A stretch of 64,000 nucleotides of DNA from Nectonema munidae (taxonomy: Eukaryota > Nematomorpha > Nectonematoida > Nectonematidae), in the NCBI GenBank assembly GCA_030549495.1, contig JAUIRK010000945.1, positions 1,199,501 through 1,263,500 of the forward strand. The letters are read 5' to 3'. The position numbers were made by a program, and so were the translations under genes. Positions 4,301 to 26,300 of this stretch are shown here, piece by piece. Position 1 is the stretch's first letter. Each line of letters opens with the position of its first letter. Below the pieces are notes generated by a model. It saw nothing but the letters and a program-made list of their open reading frames with translations, had not been told where the DNA came from and searched no databases.

Positions 4301-4586
4301 GAATCCAAATTCCAGTTGGCTCAATCATATTTAGCTATTCTAACTAAATGCGTGAATTTAATCAAAAACCTTGATTTTATTTTGTTCGTATGTGAGAGAA
4401 CAATAAATTCTATTGCATAAAATCAGAAGGTTTCAACTTTTTTGTTGTGGTTTTTTTTTAAAAAAAAACTCTTAATCTAATGAGTGGGATAACGCGTTGT
4501 CTGTCTTTTGTTCATTTCTTCTGAAGAAAATCGAATATACTGATTTTTTAATCTTTTAAATTCATAAAGAATAATGATGTATATGG

Positions 4587-4732
4587 TCAGGAAAAAAAGG
4601 TTTGTATTCTTTTCGAGAATAATAATTAATTAATATTAATTAATGCTGAATTTGCAATAAGCATTTTTTCACAAATTTTGCAAAAAATTTTATTAAAAAA
4701 AAAGCCCAGAAGACCTCAACAATGAAAACCCT
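4587..4732. repeat. 146-bp dispersed repeat, copy 1
   Basis: It runs from TCAGGAAAAAAAGG to GAAAACCCT and is matched almost base for base at 5497-5642 in the same orientation. Both copies contain an internal palindromic block built from ATTAATTAATATTAATTAAT. It has no coding capacity. Confidence 0.75.
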
Positions 4733-5496
4733 CAGATATCACAATTTTTTTTAATAGCCAAACTTCCCAGTACTTCATTGAGAAAAATTCGTTAAACACA
4801 CTTTCTCATTAAATACGCAAATTTGACTTTTCATTGGTATTTCTAACAGGGAAGCGAATAGAGTTCATAGTATCGAAGGCACAACTGGGTCCATGGGGGT
4901 AGTGTCAAATACGCGAAAAGATTTTTGTCATCAATAGCCAAAAGATGCCGCGGATTTTTGATCTAGAAATAAATTTTTTTTGGAAACAACGAATGACAAG
5001 AGTGTTTGTTGCGTCTGCAATCTTATTTTTTGTCATCCGTTTTAAACGAAATGTTTTGTAACTAAAAAATCGTTTTGGAAAAATGTAGTGCTTCAAGGCC
5101 AGGGGCAATTCTGCCTTTGAACAATGGGCCATGAAGGCACAGAATGCTTCCCAATGCGAGAATCCCATATCTCTGGTGTTACAATGCTAAAATTAGTGCA
5201 AATATACACATTTCGCAGCATTCTGTGTAAATAATGAAACGGGTACACAACATTTTACTCTAGTGTAGGAAAAGTTCACGTAAATGTGTCGTCGCATCGT
5301 TTTGCTTCGGCTTGGAAATGGAGCTTCGGACTCCGATCAACACCAATTTCATTCGCCCACTGAATCAATATGTAGTAAATGCGTTTTCTATTCACTAAAT
5401 GCTTTTTATTTTATTGCTTCTCCTTCATTTCTGGCATCTTGTCTTCCCAAAGTAATTTATATTTTCCCTCTATTATTACATATATATATATATATA

Positions 5497-12092: not shown

Positions 12093-15000
12093 GTATGCTC
12101 TCTTCCCCCATTGATTTGATTGGTTAATCTTAGATGTCATCAACTGCCAATCACTCATTCTTGTTATGAGTGATTACCACCAAGCGTTAACGAGTGCAAA
12201 TTTTTTCTTTTTTTTTTAAAACAATTTCGCAGACGAATTTCACATTTTAGCAGACGATTTTTGCATTTTAGAATTTTTTCTTAAATTTTGTCCTTTAAAA
12301 TGGCGAATAAGTTTCTAATAATTATGAACAACCTTCAAATACTTCTTTTTAAACTCTAATACTTTTGAATATAAATTAAGTAAGATTTTTCCTTATCACT
12401 ATCAAAATTTTTAGTCCAATCTTTTAAACCGGGGTTAACGTCAACAAAAAATTCTATGATATTTACTTTAAAGCAAATGACATATTGAAGAAATTTTTTT
12501 TAAACAAATTTTAAAAATCCAATGAATTTTGCATTTTTCTTAGAGACCAATAATAATAATTCATAGAAAAAAATTCAAAAATTATATACTGCCTCAAATA
12601 TTATGATAAACATATGTGAATTTTTAAAAACTATCCTATTAAATCTGCAAGCTTATAATGTGTAAGGATTTATTATATTTTAGAACATATAAACCTATTG
12701 TTTTGTTCTTGTTTCAAATAATAAATAAATAACTTTTTCAAAATGTGCCACCGCTTGTAAAACTACTAATAAAGGAGACTTGCTGTTCGAACCCAACACC
12801 TTGAGTTATCGAAGCCCAGTAGTATATAAACACCTAGCTCACGCATAGTTCCAAATATATTTTATTTATCATTTATAATTTCAATAAAAATGTTCCTTTT
12901 TTGGATACTAATATATATTTCATGCAATTTCCTAGGAAGTTTTTTTGGTCTCTCATAATTTACATACAAAATTTAAGAGGAATTTTGAAAGCTTAAGCAG
13001 TTACCCGGTTGTTTGATCCGATTCGTTTAAAAACCGATAGCGGAGTCAATTCAACGTTTTGGTTGTATACGGGCGTGACTTTTAGCCGAAATAAGCTGAC
13101 ATCTTGTCACAACTTTTTTTTGGAAATTTCAATGTGAATTTTTTAGAATGAAAAATAATTTTTTGAATAAATTTTCTTATTTTTAATTATTAACTAGTTT
13201 AAAAACATTGAAATAAATCGCATTATTTTTTATTTTTCTTGAAAAAAACTGACATTTCGAAGCGATCTTAAAAGATTCCTGTTTATTTATTTTCAATAAA
13301 TGAATTCTTTCACTTATTTTTCCTTCTAATCGAAGAAATACAGCGAATTACTTTTAAAATTTGTTCAAATAACTACCTACCATCCTGCATTTCCGCTTAA
13401 GGAAGTGATCTTTGGGAGCAATCATCATTTCCACGAAGAGTGCTTCCTGTGCAGTGGTTGTCAAAAGCCGTTAAAGCTGACCGACTACGAATCATTCAAG
13501 GGCAAGCCATACTGTTCAACTTGCTACGCATCCTGTCTCCCGGCAGGAGGAAAGTGTTCTGGCTGTGGCAACAACTTGAAGTCAAGTAAGCAAGCAAACA
13601 TTTTTTAACGATAGTGTTTCTAGCACGGTTTCTGAATTAACTTTATAGTTGGAATCTGAAGTTTTAGCGAATTTATGTAGACTTATAATCTATACATATG
13701 GTATTTGATTGACATTTATGATTTTTGCTGAAACATCTTTGCTGCAGCTTTAAAATTGTGTTTCAAGGATTTTAGTTTTTTTTTTTGAATATTTTTTGCT
13801 TATTATTAGACGAAGAAAGGCTGGAGTACAAGAATCAGCTCTGGCACAAAAACTGTTTCAATTGCAGCCTGTGCAAGAAGTCCATTGCCAACGTGAAGTT
13901 TCACAACGAGAAAAATCAGCTTATTTGTACCAACTGCTATCAACAAAATGTTGCCCAAAGATGCGCTAAATGTCAAAACGTATACCTCCTTCCTCCCTAA
14001 TCATCTTTTATTCTTTTTTTTTTGAAGAAAAAAAAATTAATCAATTTCACTTTTTCATTTCCTGTGAAACTGTAAAACCAGGAATTTTATGATGTTAAAA
14101 ATTAAGAAGATTTATCGAATTAGTGTTCCACTTGAAAATCACTAGAGATTGCACACCGGGGACCCCGCCCCCGTCTCCTCCCCGGGGAAAATCTTATTTC
14201 CCCGAGGAAAAAATACAAGATTAAATTCACAGTTATAATCATATTTTTACATTATACGATAGATAATGTGGTGGTATTTATGTATTATGTGCATTTCAAA
14301 GTTATATGTATTCTTTATAATTCATCATGTAAACAAAAACAGACTCTCTCAGGATTATTGTTTTTAAAATTTTGAATAAATCATTTCAAAATTTTAGTGT
14401 TCTTGATAAAAAAAAAATTTTTTCCATGGGGTGCATGCACGTGTATAATAAGTATTAATTAACCCATTAATGCCCAACCATGGAATTAGATAAAAAATCT
14501 TAATTCTCTTTTTTGTAATATTACTCATTTGGTATCAATAGCCAAAATTTCTTTTGTATATTTAATACCGTTTTTAGTTTTTTGACAAACGGGTGTACAC
14601 ATATGTGCACGCTAGGAAGTTTTCAATCCATCAAATTTAGAAAAGATAATGTTATAAAAGATAAAATACAATTTTATTTAATCTTAAAAACATTAGCACC
14701 ATTTTGAAGTATGGAAGAGTTTAAAATGTCCACTGTCAATGCATAAAGCCACATCACAAGTTTAACATATCACTCTGGTTCGCCTTGCACATGAAGAAAC
14801 AGCACATCTCACTTTGTCCATCTGTTTTGGCCAGTGTGGTCTTCCATGAAGTCGTACACTTTCATCTACTCTCGCTTTGCCTTTTTTGAAAGATTTTCTC
14901 GGGAAAATATTAATACATGCTTTTTTATCGCTCAGATAGGAAGATGAAACACTTCTCAAAAACCACAGTAAATCGTGGCCTTTGTTGTCGTTTGCCATCT

Positions 15001-17592
15001 TATACAGCATGAAGGAAAATGTCATAAGCGTAGACAAAAGTTTGGTGAAATGTGGCCACCACCACTTTTTCGACTTAATGGGTATTCATAAGTTTCTCGA
15101 GGCCCAACTTCACCACTTTCCGCGGACGATGGGTGTCCAGGATGGGAAAAAGGAGGTTCTCCTTAGGGCGCTTTCCTTCTGGCACAAAGCAGTCGTTCAA
15201 ACAAGCCAGGATCCTCCTATGGCTCGAAACATCCAGTGCCTCGACAGATGCCCTCAGTAACGTAGTGGAACACGTCAAGTCGGTGGACGATCCTGCGGAC
15301 GGCCCGTCACGCACGCTCCCAAAGAACCCGATCCACTCCTTGAAGATTTGGAATTGCACCATTGCCATGGATTCCATGGAATGGGTCACCTTCTTTGAAA
15401 CAATCTGGAGATCCTTCAGAGAAAAAACCAAAGATAGAATGGCGAGGTTCTCGCCTCTGCTGGCCTGAGCACCCATCGTCCGCGGACGGAGGTGCAATTG
15501 GGCCCCGAGAAACTCGATGGACTGCACGGGGGAGAGGATCGATTTCTTGACGTTTATGCGGATTCCGCATTCGTCTTCCAGAAACCGAGTGAAGGCCGTA
15601 GTGATCTTGGTTGTGGATTCCCGGTCCTCCCCCAAAATCAAGAAGTCGCCCAGGTATAAGCGGAATTGGGCACGCAGTTCCACTGGTAGTCTTTCCTTGA
15701 AAGTTCCTAGCAGACGTGCCACCACGCTTTGTAGGACTGCTGGGCTAAAGCACGCCTCCATTGGCAACCTGGTGAACTGTCAAATTTTTCCCCCTAACTT
15801 GATACAAAAGCAGTTTCTCCATTCCTTCTGGATTCTAATGTCATAAAACGCATCTGTAAGATTCAGACGGGTGGCCCATTTGAATGAGGGCTGAACGTAG
15901 TGCAGCTGGAAGGGGGCCGTGAGCTTGATAGCTGGCGTGACGAAGAGGTCCCTTGAGAAACCAAAGTCTGCCACAAAACGAGTCTTCCCGGTGGCCTTGG
16001 GAACCAAGAAGCACGGGGAGACTATTCTAGGGCGAATCGCCTGTTTCAGTACGCCAGACTGGACAAGTCTCGGGAGAACCTCCTTTGTAAAGAACGATTT
16101 CTGCTCCTTAGGCCGTGCTGAGAACCTGAAGAAGGAGTGGAAGGGGGATTGCTTATGAGCCTGGACAAGATTAAAAAATTTCTGGACAAGGATGCTAATT
16201 TTGGTCAACTGGAGCTTTGAAAAGCGGGGCAGTGACCTGGAAGGTGGAACCCAGGACGGGGGCCCTGAGCCTGGCTGAGGTGGTAAATGAGGAGAGCAGT
16301 TTCTTACATGATGTGATGTCAATGATCGACGGGATCTGGTCCTCAGCCGGATCTGGACAGGGGTTCTCGTTCGGGTCAAACGACATCACCTGCGAGAAAA
16401 TGGTTTTCCAAAAAAAAAATTTTTTTTTGTTAAAAAAATTACTTCATTATTTTCTTTTTCGATTTTTTTTGCCTGGATTATTGAGTCATCTCCATCTTCC
16501 CAGGTAACATGAACACCATAAGCGTTGACTTCTTTTACCATTCCATACACTTTAGCAGGATTGTGAGACTTTCCAAAACGATTATAACTCCATCTTTCTT
16601 TCAGAGGAACTTTCATATCATCAAAAAGAAAAGCTTTTGCACTAACCAAATCACCTTTACGATACATAATATTACTAACAACTTGCTATTAAAATCAAGA
16701 GCAGCAAGCTACAAAAAAATCATAAAAGACAACACACATTGAATCATCAATCAACTGATGTATATCAGTGAGTTGTGCACATATGTGTACACCAGGGTGC
16801 ACCTGGTGTGCACATTTGTGAACAATTAATTTTTCTTTAGAGTGAATGAGAGCAACTTTAATGCTTAAATTAATTGGGCATTATATCGTGTTATAAAGCT
16901 CTTTAGCTCAACACAAATACTAAAAAAAAGGAAAAAATATTTTTGAAAACCTTTCATTTTATCGAAGCATATATTATTTTACGGTTAGAAAAAAATGAAA
17001 TTAAAAGTGCGAATTATCTTTTAGCCTATTACGGGTCCAGCTGTCAAAAGCAAAAACGACATATTCCACAAGCAATGCTTCATCTGTGTTGGTTGTGGCA
17101 AGGAGTTAGCGGGAAAGAGCGTAGCTTCCCACAACAACGACCCCTATTGCATCGACTGCTATGGCAAGATGTTCGCGAAGAGATGTGCCAATTGCAAACA
17201 GCCAATCACAGGTAGGATTCAGCATAACCTATTAAGAAGGCCCAGATGATTCTTGCTTTTTTTTAAAAGTGGTCTTTAACCAAATTACGTAATGTCGTAT
17301 GCTCTTCCTCTGTGTTTCTGTTTTAGCCCTCTTCGGCTCCAATGGAACTACGGTGTTTGTTTTAAGTTAAATATCATGGGCATTCAACCCCGTGACTTTT
17401 TTAGTACTAATGAACTGTTTTCACGTTTTTTGAATAGGAGCAGGTGGAATGCAATTCGTCTCATACGAAGATCGTAACTGGCACAAACAATGCTTTATGT
17501 GCTTCAATTGCGGCAAAAATTTAGCCGATGCTTCCTTCAATACCATTGACGAGAAGATTTCCTGTGCCAGCTGTGCCGAAAAGTTTCAGTAG
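11949..17592 (+). CDS. FHL: FHL-type four-and-a-half LIM domain protein, five coding exons
   Basis: Joining 11949-12092, 13402-13585, 13810-13979, 17025-17211 and 17438-17592 gives 840 nt, a 279-residue protein ending in TAG. All four introns have GT/AG borders and matching phases. The half LIM (C3, C6, C24, C27) is followed by four full LIM domains. LIM1 uses C36-C39-H59-C62 and C65-C68-C86-C89, LIM2 starts at C100-C103, and the rest follow with the same C-x2-C/H-x2-C pattern. FHL proteins are about 280 residues with this architecture. They act as non-enzymatic scaffolds linking signalling proteins, transcription factors and the actin/sarcomere apparatus. The start is the first ATG after an in-frame upstream TGA within the acceptor-bounded exon. 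It could be called a Limpet-type isoform; I cannot see alternative N-termini. Confidence 0.93.
12741..12848 (-). repeat. tRNA-derived SINE, family 2 (in FHL intron 1)
   Basis: The minus strand reads GGGCTTCGATAACTCAAGGT, then a B-box-like GGGTTCGAAC, matching the family 2 copy at 1048-1164 in order and spacing. The right end carries TGAGCTAGG in place of the consensus head. Confidence 0.6.
13402..13585 (+). CDS. FHL: FHL coding exon 2 (LIM1 and start of LIM2)
   Basis: The acceptor CTTAAG precedes GAAGTGATC and the donor is A|GTAAGC, phase 1. The exon supplies the H-x2-C-x2-C-x2-C centre and the closing C-x2-C of LIM1, then the C-x2-C that opens LIM2. Confidence 0.92.
13683..13746 (+). repeat. 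64-bp repeat in FHL intron 2
   Basis: It differs at one position from 17675-17738 downstream of the FHL stop codon, in the same orientation. It is non-coding and contains CATATGGTATTTGATTGACA. The two copies bracket the last three coding exons. Confidence 0.8.
13810..13979 (+). CDS. FHL: FHL coding exon 3 (LIM2 and start of LIM3)
   Basis: The acceptor ATTATTAG is followed by two bases completing the phase-1 codon, and the donor GTATAC is in phase 0. It encodes the WHKNCFNC centre of LIM2 and the C-x2-C pair opening LIM3. The intron that follows (13980-17024) houses the piggyBac/RT composite. Confidence 0.92.
14690..15037 (-). pseudogene. piggyBac transposase C-terminal fragment with zinc ribbon
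   Basis: The frame reads NDNKGHDLLWFLRSV, then ARVDESVRLHGRPHWP and a Cys-rich tail with CAVSSC, RTRVIC and, after a TAA, TCDVALC. This is the order of the C-terminal dimerisation and CRD zinc-ribbon region of piggyBac-family transposases. The internal TAA between the Cys pairs breaks it. No catalytic aspartates lie in this piece. It is bounded upstream by the RT frame only about 30 nt away. Confidence 0.7.
15075..16379 (-). pseudogene. Reverse-transcriptase domain, pseudogene, DIRS/LTR-like lineage uncertain
   Basis: Ordered RT motifs are visible on the minus strand: SPCFLVPKATGKTRFVAD (fingers), LNLTDAFYDIRI (motif A with its Asp), RLPMEACFSPAVLQ (motif B), RLYLGDFLILG (motif C) and INVKKSILSP..IEFLG (motifs D/E). 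The two blocks are in the same frame, interrupted by one TGA at 15780-15782 where related proteins usually carry an aromatic residue before QFT. Motif C reads YLGD instead of YxDD, so one catalytic Asp is lost. RNase H, integrase and recombinase were not found. The motif style resembles DIRS-type or LTR-type RTs; a database search would be needed to decide. Confidence 0.75.
16440..16667 (-). pseudogene. piggyBac-associated N-terminal coding piece
   Basis: The frame starts MYRKGDLVSAKAFLFDD and continues through KERWSYNRFGKSHN and HVTWEDGDDS before running into a T/A-rich tract at 16410-16440. It lies just inside the right terminal repeat of the composite, in the same orientation as the C-terminal piece. 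Its predicted fold looks like a small beta domain of SH3 type. Assignment to the piggyBac N-terminus rests on position and general resemblance only. Confidence 0.45.
17025..17211 (+). CDS. FHL: FHL coding exon 4 (LIM3 and start of LIM4)
   Basis: The acceptor ATCTTTTAG is followed by CCTATTACG in phase 0 and the donor is G|GTAGGA, phase 1. It encodes FHKQCFICVGC of LIM3 and CANC opening LIM4. Confidence 0.92.
17438..17592 (+). CDS. FHL: FHL coding exon 5 (LIM4 and stop)
   Basis: The acceptor TTTGAATAG precedes two bases completing a Gly codon. The exon encodes NWHKQCFMCFNC and the final CASC pair of LIM4, and ends EKFQ before TAG. Confidence 0.93.
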
Positions 17593-20309: not shown

Positions 20310-23300
20310 CTGAAAATAAGGAAAGCATAATCAAAATAAATAAGGCATACTTAATCTTTGATCAATCAGCACAAATACCATGCAGGCAGAGTGGAATGGA
20401 GTTTTACAGGTGGAGCAGCGCTTGGACTTTCCCCCATCTTTCATGACACAAAAGCAAATTGAGCAAAGCGTGACGTCATTGCACGTTTCGTTTAGGTGCG
20501 CGAACCAAAGCTTCAGAGTGTATGTGAGATCTTCATTCTTAAATGGCAATATGGTAGAATGCAAAAGACTTGTGTTATTTCTTTCGTGCTTCAGTGTAAA
20601 TTTGCGAACAAAAAGTATAATAACTTCGCAAGTTTGGAGAAAAGGTTTTTTTAATTATGTAAATGAATTTTTTTGAATAGTCAAACAAATTTTGAAAGAA
20701 AAAAAAAAGATATGTTATATATAATTTTTTTGTCTAACATTACTTATTTTTTTTAATTTATTCAAATTTTCGTTTTTTTTTTCAAAAACGGCTAATGGAA
20801 AAATTGTTTAGGCTAAAAACAGTTGTGTTTAGTCAAATGGCTAAAGAAAAAAAATTGTAGCACGTGACACGCTATCATTTAAAGATCTAAGGAATTTCAT
20901 GAGAGGCCATCATGTTTATATATGACTTACAGATTAGGAAACGTGTAAGACGGTGTTTCTCAACCTGTTCCAGTTAACACACACAGGGGCCCAGAATATT
21001 TTTAGAAGGGTCCATATACCGATTTGTTGAGTAAAAGTTATGGAATTGAAAAAATCGATATATCAGCAAAAATATCAACAAAAAAGGAAGCTCAGTTATA
21101 TGTGACTGCTTTCGCATTTTCATATCTTGTTGAATAAGATTTGATACTTAAAAGTGATTAAAATATACTTTATTTTAAGTTATTCAGTCATGTTCTCTTT
21201 CTCTGCTTTCAACAAAAGGTTTTTAGATCAAAAAATTTTACTTTTCGATTTCATAAAATTTGATTGATATCACAATGTTTTGTTTGAGTGAAATTTTTGA
21301 CTGTTTGTCTTTTATTTGGTCGTGAGAATGAAGAAAAAGTATATCTTTCACGTCGCAAATCATTATTAAATGACAGCGATTTTTTGAAAAATAACAAAAA
21401 ATTGTATGTTTACATATGCAGAAAAATGCCTTTGAACATAACTGAAACTATACAACAGCATTGAAACATACAGTGATATGCTAATCAGAAGTAAAACATA
21501 CCATACTGTTGATCGTTCAAAAGATTTAGAAAATACTTTGAAAAAATATCATTTATTCAAGTATGATTTATATGATTCATTCAAGTAGTCATTTGATATA
21601 TGTTAAATTTTGTTTCCGTTCTTCAACTTTTCTTATTATATTTGCTCTTTTATTTGCGGATATTGTCTCATGCTGGCTTCTGCCAGAGGTTCCTGCAAGC
21701 ATGATCCTGATACCTTCTGCTGTCTGCGGAGTCTTTCTGAATGTCAAGTCAGTCAAGTAGACAATAGTTGAAGGGAACCTCTTCTGTTCGGCTTACAAGG
21801 TGTACTTTAGAGTTCAAGTAGGGGACCAGGACAAGAGTTGAGCGCCACACGTGGTTTGGGAAGTTGCGGGCCACTCTGGAGTAACGAAAACTGAAGGTCG
21901 GTTCGTGCCAAGATTCTGGCGGGAACCAACAGATCACACAAACAACCGCTACTTTTGTATGGTGGTAGTCACGTGTCCGCGCAAGGGTAGGAAGACGGAT
22001 ATGTTCGACTACCCCGATCTTCCATCATCTCTTCGTTCTGTGATGCATTTTGAGAAGCTTCCAGCTCCCAACCCTCCTCCAATGATCATGAAAGATGCTT
22101 GCACAAGTTCCAGCAGCGAAACAGAAGATGCCCACGACGATGCCTTTGTTGCAGATGATAACCTGGCTATTCCGCTTTCCCTAACCAAGCGGAGCTCAAT
22201 GATCTTATCAAAGACCTAGGACTCACCAAATGAAAAACAGAATTACTGACATCCAGGTTCAAACAGTGGAACTTGTTTGACGAAAACTGTCGGGTAACAA
22301 AACAGAGACAACGTCATGACATTCTCTCAGTATTTCACAATAGGTATGGTCCCTGCAACTGGCGACTGTTCGTGTACAGCTCAAATAGAAGCTTGACGGC
22401 GGTGCTGTTTCACAATGGTAACAAGTACACAAGCATTCCTATCGCCCACTCTGTTCACCTAAAGGAAGACTATGAGGATGTGAAGCTCCTATATAAAAAC
22501 TATAATTCTATATAGTGAAGCTAACTATATTTAGTCTAGAAACAGTCAAGTCTTGAGTAAAGATCACCTCAATCGTGTATCATTGCAATACATTAGTGCA
22601 TTGAAAACAGCGATCAGTAAAACACAGACCACCTAAACCTACTTACTAGCATATGTCAGGCATTCTAAGAAATTTGCGGACTGTCGAGTGAGTTTGTGCT
22701 GAGGACACTTTCTCCTACTCTTTTTTGGAGAGGAGATCTTTGACCCCCTAGACTTCACTACCAACAAAGCTTGAGCAGAGTTGCTTGACCTGGAGAGGTT
22801 GGTTGACTTAATTCTCCAAGATTCGCAATATCAGAAGTCTTCGTTTTGTAGGACTTCAGCAGAAAGTTGTGAAGACTTGAAGTACAAACTTAACGAAAGC
22901 GAAATACCTGTGAATGTGGCATATAATTTATTTATTTCCGAATTTGACGGAAGAAAGTTGTGTTGTGCAAGTGATTCTTTCTGACACAAGGCAATCCACC
23001 AACCTATGCAAGACTAAGATTCTGAACCGTTCCCCCATCTAATCCCAAAATGAAAAGTAACTCACTTTGTCGAAGGAAAAAGCTGACATGAAGTTCTGAA
23101 GGCACTCCTGCAGATACTAATGAGAGGGGCAGATTTGTCGCTCTTTGGAATTCAAATATCAAGAAGCACGCAAGTTGCTGTTGGCAAGCCCAATCTTCAA
23201 TAGATTCAAGATCAATTTATAATTCTCTTTACCCATGGACTGATCTTTCAATACTACATCCATTCGGTCGGATTCTGAACTTCTCATTTCTGATGTGATC

Positions 23301-26300
23301 AAATATACAGAGGAGAAACTTGTTGAAGTTGGTTGTAGAATCACTTGACGATGACATGTCAAAGCCCAACGTTTACTAGTCTTAATAGATAGTTTCTCAG
23401 TAGACAGAGTGCTTTCTCTAGGTCACACAAGGGGAAAATGTCTGATTCAAAAATTAGTGAAGTCACGTGCAAATCATAGAGAGAAACGCATCGGTACCGA
23501 TAACGCCATACATCCTCTGCGATCAAATCCGATGGAGAGGCCCAGAAGGTGTCTAAATTTACGCACGGGCTTCTGCGAGACTCATCAAGCATTGAGATAG
23601 CCGAAGGTGGACTCGGGTGGCCTCCTCTAAGAATAAGACTGTGGCAAACGTTCTTGGAGTTGTATAAACCTCTTCATCTAGGATTTTCCTTCAAAACCAT
23701 AAATGTCACGCCTCCAGAGTCATGACCGAGAACAATAAAATCAATCGGAGGGTCCAGAAAATTTAATATTGCCCTGGTGTGATAATGAGCTCCAGTTGCT
23801 AGTTGGTTAAACCTTAAACCAGAAATTTCATTCAAGATTGGAGGGCCCTCTCTCAGTTGACAGCGTGTGAGAATTAGAGAAGGAGACCACTCTTAGGTCC
23901 ATAACTGGATCTCACTTAAATCGTGAAGAGGATGGGAGGGTAAAGGTGGGAAGGAGTTTAGTCGTGCAGATTTTGTGAGTTTAGCGGCCTCTTTTATTTC
24001 CAAGCGAGATGCCAAAATAGTGTAAGCAGGATGCATTAGCTCGATGTCTGGACTGTCAGGTAAGTAGGCTTCGTCCCAGAAACCCAGCCTATTCACCGTT
24101 TCAACGCTGTTCTATAGTTTTAGTAATGTTCAAAGACATTTTTCTGCAATTTTCTTATGAAAATATATAGTTTTCAAAAATAAATCAATCATCTAATTGA
24201 ATAAATTGTATCAATCATGTTTGAATATAATCTATTTGTGACAGAAATAAACTTCATGATATGTGAGTTTTTATTAACACGACGATTATGAAATGTCTAA
24301 CTTCTGGAAAGCGTATTAACATATGTTTCAAGTGTAATTTATAGTTGCGGTAGTTACTTTAAGAAATGTCGCTGCCATTTTTTAAATAACGATCAGTCAA
24401 AAACCTGATATAATGAACCAACAAAAGCGTATACTAATTTGTACCCAGGCATGATGATAATACGCACAACACAGAGTTATTATGTGTGAAAAGCTAAACT
24501 AAGTATTCTAGAAACAAAACAATTGCATTGTGTAAAAGAATAAATTTGATCTAACTTTGAATTTGTTGCCGGCAAAAAAATGCGAACAAACATATTTAGT
24601 ATAGTTCTTGGGGGTGAGAGTAAAAGAATTTTAATAGCTGCAATAAAAGGGGGGGGGGGTTCAGAAATTCCGTTTCCAAATGAAGAAGATGAAAGTGTTG
24701 AAAAGTGGTTCTTTTTACCATTTTTAGGAGTTGAAGAAGTTTCAAGCGCAAAACATCTTTAGCTTTTTCACAGGAGATTGCATACTTTGTGAATGGGTAG
24801 GACTGTGCGTTGAAGGAAACCGTTGTCTCGATTTCGCCGGTTTCGTAAGTGGATGTGATCAAAATTTCGTTATTTGTTTGTATCAGCGACTCGAGACCAA
24901 ATTTCGTTTTATTCTTGCTCAATTCTTCCTGCATCAGAGAAAAAGGTATGCACGCGAGATTAGATAAAGCATTTTGTAGATTAAGGTTAAAAGTTATAAA
25001 TTGTTGGTCTCCAACCTGTATACTACGACGATTCATTTCAACCTGTATACTACGATGGTTTCTATTCCATGTACAAATAACTAGGGAGACAATGTTCAAC
25101 TTTTTGTTCACATTCTGCTAGATTAAGATTTGATATACCCCATTCGGGGAGACGATGCTACATAAGTTATTACCTATATACATTATACCTGTATACTACG
25201 ATGGTTCATCTCCAACCTGTATACCGCGATAATTCATCTCCAACCTATCAGTTCATATTTTGCTAGATATAAGATTTGATATACCTCATTCGGGGAGAGG
25301 ATGTTAGATAAGTTATTAATTTTTTCACGATATTAAATAATTTATTTTATCAAATAATCAAAATAAAATTCTGTAATCAAAGAATCGAAAAATATTCTTT
25401 AAAAAATCAAAAAATATCAAACTTTCTGTTCATATTTTGCTACCTCATACGATGTTACAAAAGTTATTACCTATACTTTGCAATTTGCAGGATTTTAAAT
25501 ATTATATTTGTCGAATAATCAAAGAATCAAAAAATGTTCAAATCAAAAAATATTTATTCTTTTTAAATATATCGTTGGCTCCCCTTACTTTTAGTTTCGT
25601 ATGTGCATAATTTGATAAAAATTAATTATTAAAGACTAGGTTTATCTTTCTATTCTAAAAGTAAGGGGAGCCAACGATATAATCCAGGGGGTCCATATAA
25701 TAACTCAGGGGGTCCACAATGATATTTTGGTGGACCATGAAGAAAAATCATCTGATAACGGTTTTTATTATAAAAAAGTTCGCAATAGACTTTACATCGT
25801 AAAAAGAGGTGCTCTACGACGAACATTAACTTCAATGCAACCACCAGATATAAAGAAACGCGTTGAGCAGCATCAACCACAGGGATCTCATTAAATGTCT
25901 TTCTTTTTTTATTATAAAAATTATTGCATTCGATTTGCTTTCATTTCAACATGAATTCTAAGTGTATACTATTTTCTTTATCATAACCTCAAAAATTTTA
26001 TTAGTGAAAAATATTAAAATAAATATTTTTTATCCAATTTTTATGAAGGGGTCCACCAAGAAAAAAAGAAATAAGGGGTCCATGAGTAAAAAAAGTTGAG
26101 AAACACGGATCTAGATGGTCAAATAAACCAACCACACACTACAACATATTGTGTTTCTATAACTATATTAAATAAGAGTAACAAATACACTCAAGTGAAG
26201 AAATTAAGCCAGAGATTGGTATGAAGTGTCTTTGATTATTTTGTAAGATTCCAAACATTGAATGCTCACATTTGTTTCAACGGTACCGCATACAAGAATA

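Follow-up and report, generated by a model that had tools for sequence, protein, structure and literature searches.

The locus examined here raises the question of how a reverse transcriptase (RT) sequence came to lie between the ends of a piggyBac transposase, and whether it has a role there. In the window, a stretch of 64,000 nucleotides from the nematomorph Nectonema munidae, a first-pass annotation had delimited one element at 14459-16894, in which an RT unit had either replaced the catalytic DDE core of the transposase or belonged to a composite family that moves RT genes inside piggyBac ends. With a probability of roughly 0.88, the element represents a non-autonomous family of the piggyBac superfamily, which has lost its whole DDE core, carries retroelement-derived filler in its place and has spread to dozens of sites. 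This estimate concerns the family as such and is common to a rival account in which the retroelement entered by retrotransposition, the two differing only in how the filler arrived.

The left end of the element was placed correctly, as a TTAA target site (14459-14462; TTAA in 23 of the 28 loci with a readable left end) is followed by the family's common left terminal sequence, CCCATTAATGCCCAACC (14463-14481), which pairs with the right terminal sequence found next to TTAA in other copies, TATAATGGG. A perfect subterminal inverted repeat was also recovered, with 19 of 19 bp matching (14592-14610 and 16775-16793). The right boundary at 16894 did not hold, since homology between copies continues through a last common stretch (16895-16970; only positions 1-110 of a 323-bp query match), after which local sequence follows, and the TAATGCCCAA block near 16868, formerly taken as terminal, is internal to the element. 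In other copies the right end, GGATATAATGGG followed by TTAA, lies ~280 bp past 16894. Because the aligned copies run past 16970 to this right terminus and its TTAA, the window copy is right-truncated: it is without the ~200 bp that carry the terminus, and only the left TTAA is present. Full copies end in CCCATTA...TAATGGG, that is, in short terminal inverted repeats starting with CCC, and these together with the TTAA target site duplication place the family in the piggyBac superfamily. TTAA was found at the right end in 10 of 19 loci where this end is readable, and on both sides in nine loci, which measure 2747 bp in one case and 3054-3140 bp in the others, so that a complete element comprises ~3.1 kb; L031, outside these nine, has TTAA at both ends, its right end being reduced to the last bases. 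LIM-domain frames lie on both sides of the window element (13330-13605, 13776-13997, 17025-17246 and 17434-17589, all on the plus strand), hence its site is probably intronic within a LIM gene.

Recurrence of the two joins between piggyBac and RT sequence at several loci had been named as the test of a composite family. The genome (211.6 Mb in 748 contigs) contains at least 116 matches to the element, obtained from the best 40 of 120 candidates, and the locus set consists of 38 loci with their flanks, the window's own included, with several further part-element loci outside it. Both joins were found in 21 of these 38 loci and, together with the inversion joint described below, in 18; taken singly, join 2 (retroelement filler to piggyBac C-terminal piece, 15087-15090) is present in 30, join 1 (piggyBac N-terminal piece to filler, 16413-16440, inside an A/T run) in 24 and the inversion joint in 23. 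Genome probes, which reach mostly the same loci and whose rows were counted by hand, crossed join 2 in 30 of the 40 matches listed (the best 40 of 51 candidates) and join 1 in 25 of 40 (the best 40 of 49). Nested debris confined to one locus, or an artefact of assembly, as the truncated and decayed window copy might suggest, is refuted by this recurrence on many contigs with different flanks and retains a next to negligible probability; among 31 left flanks a single pair is alike, that of L033 and L035, up to the element. A tree of 32 rows, with four of 29 inner branches starred, resolves neither the RT-free pair nor the long-form pair and does not settle whether the long or the short form came first. 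L041 and the window row sit on long branches, probably because the fixed 1100-bp cut took in dissimilar sequence there.

Seven loci (L032, L033, L041, L042, L034, L035 and L043) are read as broken copies, since no right terminus was found in them. The first four seemed to hold other cargo, and a swap of the interior by a modular shell was considered and rejected because the right terminus is missing. An apparent inversion joint in L033 proved to be an artefact of the inverted repeat and vanished with single-strand comparison. Past the element, L033 has a short tandem repeat with a unit like CAGAACAGACTTATACACCGACCTTCCACCTT, which starts abruptly within the filler; in L041 an adjacent frame resembles, by eye, a piece of another piggyBac, and L027 (1471-6374) is a composite copy with an extra insertion, whose frames resemble a hAT-type transposase by eye.

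The identity of the shell follows from two RT-free relatives, L038 and L040, in which the same N- and C-terminal pieces as in the composite enclose a decayed DDE core. Two pieces of the L040 core match DDE_Tnp_1_7 (E 4.7e-24 and 8.6e-20), and the L038 core is 60-78% identical to that of L040, with stops inside. Judged by DNA identity to these copies, the N- and C-terminal pieces are piggyBac. In the window the N-terminal piece (16414-16667, minus strand; MYRKGDLVSAK...), which precedes the core in L038 and L040, gave no meaningful Pfam match, while the C-terminal piece (14762-15085, minus strand), which adjoins the core in the relatives, is a broken frame. The zinc ribbon that had been attributed to the latter is weak, zf-Tnp_2 being below the cut-off in the L009 piece (E 0.0058) and absent from the Pfam matches listed for the window piece. 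The described minus-strand order of N-terminal piece, RT motifs and C-terminal piece stands, and so does the absence of a DDE core between the two piggyBac pieces. L038 and L040 match the probe for join 2 over positions 1-108 and that for join 1 over 114/116-221, in each case stopping a few bases short of the join, therefore the foreign stretch occupies the former position of the core, as the earlier reading of an RT unit in place of the core had it; and since the same pieces surround a decayed core in RT-free relatives, the core was replaced and the product amplified. The A/T run at join 1 is also present in the RT-free copies. A complete transposase of its own is absent from the composite, with no core in the window copy or L009, and none of the aligned copies with RT (10 for join 1 and 13 for join 2, the long form among them) shows core sequence beside the joins. 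An intact transposase of the composite's lineage was not encountered; the best remaining match of the L040 core has 65% identity over 144 residues. The piggyBac content of the genome is very rich, with at least 117 PF13843 matches (the best 116 of 6799 candidates), among which, as listed, are many open frames of more than 450 residues from other piggyBac lineages.

As to the foreign stretch, an RT search of the genome gave plentiful long-frame matches as relatives of the donor, and six regions were fetched. L047 and L052 each have an ORF2 of 996 residues with RVT_1 (E 7.8e-15 and 6.6e-15, respectively) that ends in an RNase H-like part; upstream of it lies an ORF1, which had no profile match and is called Gag-like by its position only. 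DNA_pol_viral_C was recorded slightly below the cut-off in both ORF2 (E 9e-4 in L047 and 1e-4 in L052), and RNase H motifs were recognised by eye; with RVT_1 and a downstream RNase H, the donor belongs among the RT-RNase H retroelements, its RNase H part being the weaker. In PDB the nearest match to the C-terminal 595 residues of L047 ORF2 is 7kse (E 1.8e-10), a protease/RT/RNase H chain (peptidase A9), which we take to be from a spumavirus. L048 is a head-to-tail array of RT-RNase H units with a step of ~3.8 kb, and match positions indicate head-to-tail units elsewhere, with steps of 3.8 kb on C246 and ~4.3 kb on C126 and C147. In L052, a retroelement of the donor type is flanked, by eye, by two portions of a less closely related RT frame (L052:1-440 and 4389-4920).

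Compared with L047 ORF2, the filler consists of a sense part followed by an antisense part in 11 of the 13 copies compared, the other two, L033 and L042, having antisense parts only. The sense part starts at residue 413-428 or thereabouts (at 651 in L031, where that copy is cut) and ends at about residue 752 (697 in L027, 797 in L022 and L025), whereas the antisense part runs from at most residue 992 down to 729-758, so that all 13 have the RNase H side in antisense. In the window the sense segment, about residues 413-752 and thus the front RT part, occupies 15444-16413 on the minus strand, and the inverted segment, residues 992 to 729 of the downstream ORF2, occupies 15090-15459 on the plus strand; at the inversion joint (15444-15459) residue 752 abuts antisense residue 992. 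The overlap of the two segments forms a 51-bp inverted repeat with arms that are 84% alike (15091-15141 and 15464-15514). About 390 bp of the inverted segment are absent from the window copy at about 15191-15195, and many genome matches to the 14459-16894 element consist of query positions 1-737, an extra stretch and then positions 733-2436. L022 and L025 have an extra stretch that aligns in antisense, over ~330 bp, with the inter-unit region of L048 (for L025, blastn E 8e-21) and that in L025 also matches the start of ORF1, again in antisense (tblastn E 2e-6 and 4e-5); for ~150 bp between this stretch and the sense part there was no match among the fetched loci. The simplest source for the filler would be an array of head-to-tail retroelement units.

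The RT with ordered motifs described earlier is therefore correct for the front part only; beyond it lies antisense RNase H-side sequence, and the RT of the window is broken. Its catalytic box (15645-15656, minus strand) reads YLGD, where L009 and L031 have YLDD, and a stop codon (15780-15782, minus strand) splits the frame. RVT_1 stays below its cut-off of 29.6 bits in the window piece (26.5 bits, E 6e-6) and reaches E 1.8e-10 in the corresponding piece of L009; against NCBIfam the window pieces have weak similarity to group II RTs only (23.8 bits vs. a cut-off of 300), and the nearest PDB matches of the L009 piece are group II intron RTs (E 1.8e-6). Judged by this layout, the carried 'RT' is no gene but a truncated, half-inverted ORF2 fragment with no sign of working.

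A mobile family that is composite in function as well, its RT copying the element or being functional cargo, would agree with the constant order in many copies and with the open RT pieces and YLDD kept in some of them, but is largely contradicted by the inversion of the RNase H side and by a reading frame across join 1 that differs between copies with the differing length of the A/T run. The pattern of substitution also argues against it. Variants were counted in four short stretches, rows covering less than 80% of a stretch having been dropped beforehand. Singletons (synonymous, nonsynonymous, stop) numbered 36, 73 and 5 in RT_A (31.1, 77.6 and 5.3 expected) and 32, 76 and 7 in RT_B (35.2, 75.4 and 4.4 expected), as compared with 25, 98 and 7 in transposase C (28.7, 94.2 and 7.1 expected) and 9, 34 and 2 in transposase N (9.5, 33.1 and 2.4 expected). 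With the RT-free copies left out, shared variants amounted to 22, 38 and 1 in RT_A (20.3, 37.8 and 3.0 expected) and 15, 16 and 1 in RT_B (11.2, 19.5 and 1.3 expected). Changes in the RT and transposase pieces thus fit the neutral expectation, and the synonymous and nonsynonymous counts show no constraint. Frameshifts occur in 12 of 22 copies in RT_A and 11 of 21 in RT_B, stops in 7 of 22 and 6 of 21, and neither in 6 of 22 and 8 of 21, respectively. In the control, the long-frame RT pair L047/L052, 59% of the differences fall on codon position 3. Pairwise position-3 shares are 0.395 and 0.424 for the RT pieces vs. 0.319 and 0.321 for those of the transposase, and since the former exceed the ~0.32 of the latter, the RT may have been under weak, short constraint in an early phase before amplification. 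A working RT within piggyBac was rejected in view of the antisense part and the neutral drift, a functional role for the RT is accordingly very improbable, and the suggestion of a family that moves RT genes was not upheld, the insert being a truncated, half-inverted and neutrally drifting fragment. Observations named beforehand as evidence against such a family were made in part: two loci hold copies that have a DDE core and no RT, but the joins are not unique and no retroelement termini were found flanking 15075-16379, both outer ends of the insert matching inside ORF2.

For the origin of the family, the following course is proposed. An ancestral piggyBac of the composite's lineage would have lost its entire DDE core when excision left a gap and a derailed repair dropped the core and copied unrelated templates, so that filler from an RT-RNase H retroelement arranged in tandem came to fill the core position, with a stretch of ORF2 in sense followed by an antisense stretch. 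In the longest copies, the latter would begin at the start of ORF1 in the next unit, cross the spacer between units and re-enter ORF2, and a later deletion would have trimmed the filler to the short form with its inversion joint; this order from long to short is suggested by the short joint falling within the long form. A post-excision gap repair that was interrupted and switched templates suits the two filler orientations, the ends inside ORF2 and the little homology at the joints (by eye), and is the somewhat favoured origin of the filler. Retrotransposition into piggyBac, followed by a deletion that removed the core and left the insert scrambled, with piggyBac transposase then amplifying what remained, is possible but rather doubtful: donor relatives are plentiful, nesting occurs, as in L052 between the two parts of another RT frame (by eye), and the inverted half resembles inversions in target-primed insertions, yet the aligned RT-bearing copies retain no core beside the joins and the insert ends match inside ORF2. 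Furthermore, a classical twin-primed insertion has the order opposite to that of the filler, in which a sense 5' part is followed by an inverted 3' part. On either account of the filler's arrival, the shell would have retained working ends (TTAA, CCCATTA...TAATGGG and the subterminal repeats), therefore a transposase supplied in trans could move the composite to dozens of sites, and such mobilisation is very probable from the ends and the TTAA sites.

The donor itself may be of a peculiar kind. No integrase or recombinase was recognised in the arrayed RT-RNase H unit, no rve integrase, as would mark a Ty3-like LTR retrotransposon, was listed in five scanned frames of L047, L048 and L052, and none lay within 5 kb of an RT among the matches listed (the best 150 of 376 candidates), the nearest being 7.4 kb away on C693. 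The tyrosine recombinase profile PF00589, which may miss DIRS recombinases, had no match in the genome, and by eye no tyrosine recombinase was recognised in the L047, L048 and L052 frames; no GIY-YIG endonuclease, as would mark a Penelope-like element, was among the Pfam matches listed for two ORF2 frames. A search of viral_contigs with one protein query for relatives of the RT gave 20 stretches that matched the pattern, none of which was confirmed. Elsewhere in the window, near the GC-rich 22001-24000, a frame of 125 residues (21842-22219, plus strand) contains a GHSGVTKT stretch, which presumably resembles the zinc-binding part of retrotransposon integrases. It is a speculative and rather improbable idea that the donor is an undescribed RT-RNase H lineage in head-to-tail arrays, so far without integrase, recombinase or endonuclease, which uses the open DNA ends of others, the composite being its cDNA captured at a piggyBac excision gap. 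If true, cut-and-paste elements would be entry points and carriers for an integrase-less retroelement lineage, and such gap capture of its cDNA would link two transposition classes mechanistically.

Non-autonomous piggyBac elements have a TTAA target, CCC...GGG ends and N- and C-terminal remnants of the transposase, all of which are found in the composite, whereas its interior is a foreign retroelement rather than the result of plain internal deletion. No publication title naming a piggyBac/RT composite was found among titles with partial literature coverage. The nearest published parallel found is the MER6/V-SINE composite, a Tc1/Mariner MITE with a SINE part, in which a retroelement fragment likewise lies between cut-and-paste ends and was multiplied together with them; there, Mariner ends enclose a SINE, here piggyBac ends enclose a partly inverted RT-RNase H fragment (PMC6887750). 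Teratorn, a piggyBac fused with a herpesvirus, similarly has a foreign element carried by piggyBac ends, but it is reportedly large (180 kb) and retains transposition activity, while the cargo of the composite is a decayed retroelement fragment (PMC5601938). Internal-deletion derivatives, which in maize and Drosophila are reported to form by abortive gap repair, share the loss of the core between retained ends after excision, whereas in the composite the core is replaced by foreign filler, by a mechanism that we infer here (PMC8700633).

The composite is a real family, but it is a passenger, ordinary in kind and of natural-history interest. As a caution, an RT recognised between transposon ends solely by the order of its motifs can be antisense for half its length. 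The series of RT-free relative, long filler, short filler and broken derivatives represents the exchange of a transposase core for retroelement DNA with continued spread of the element.
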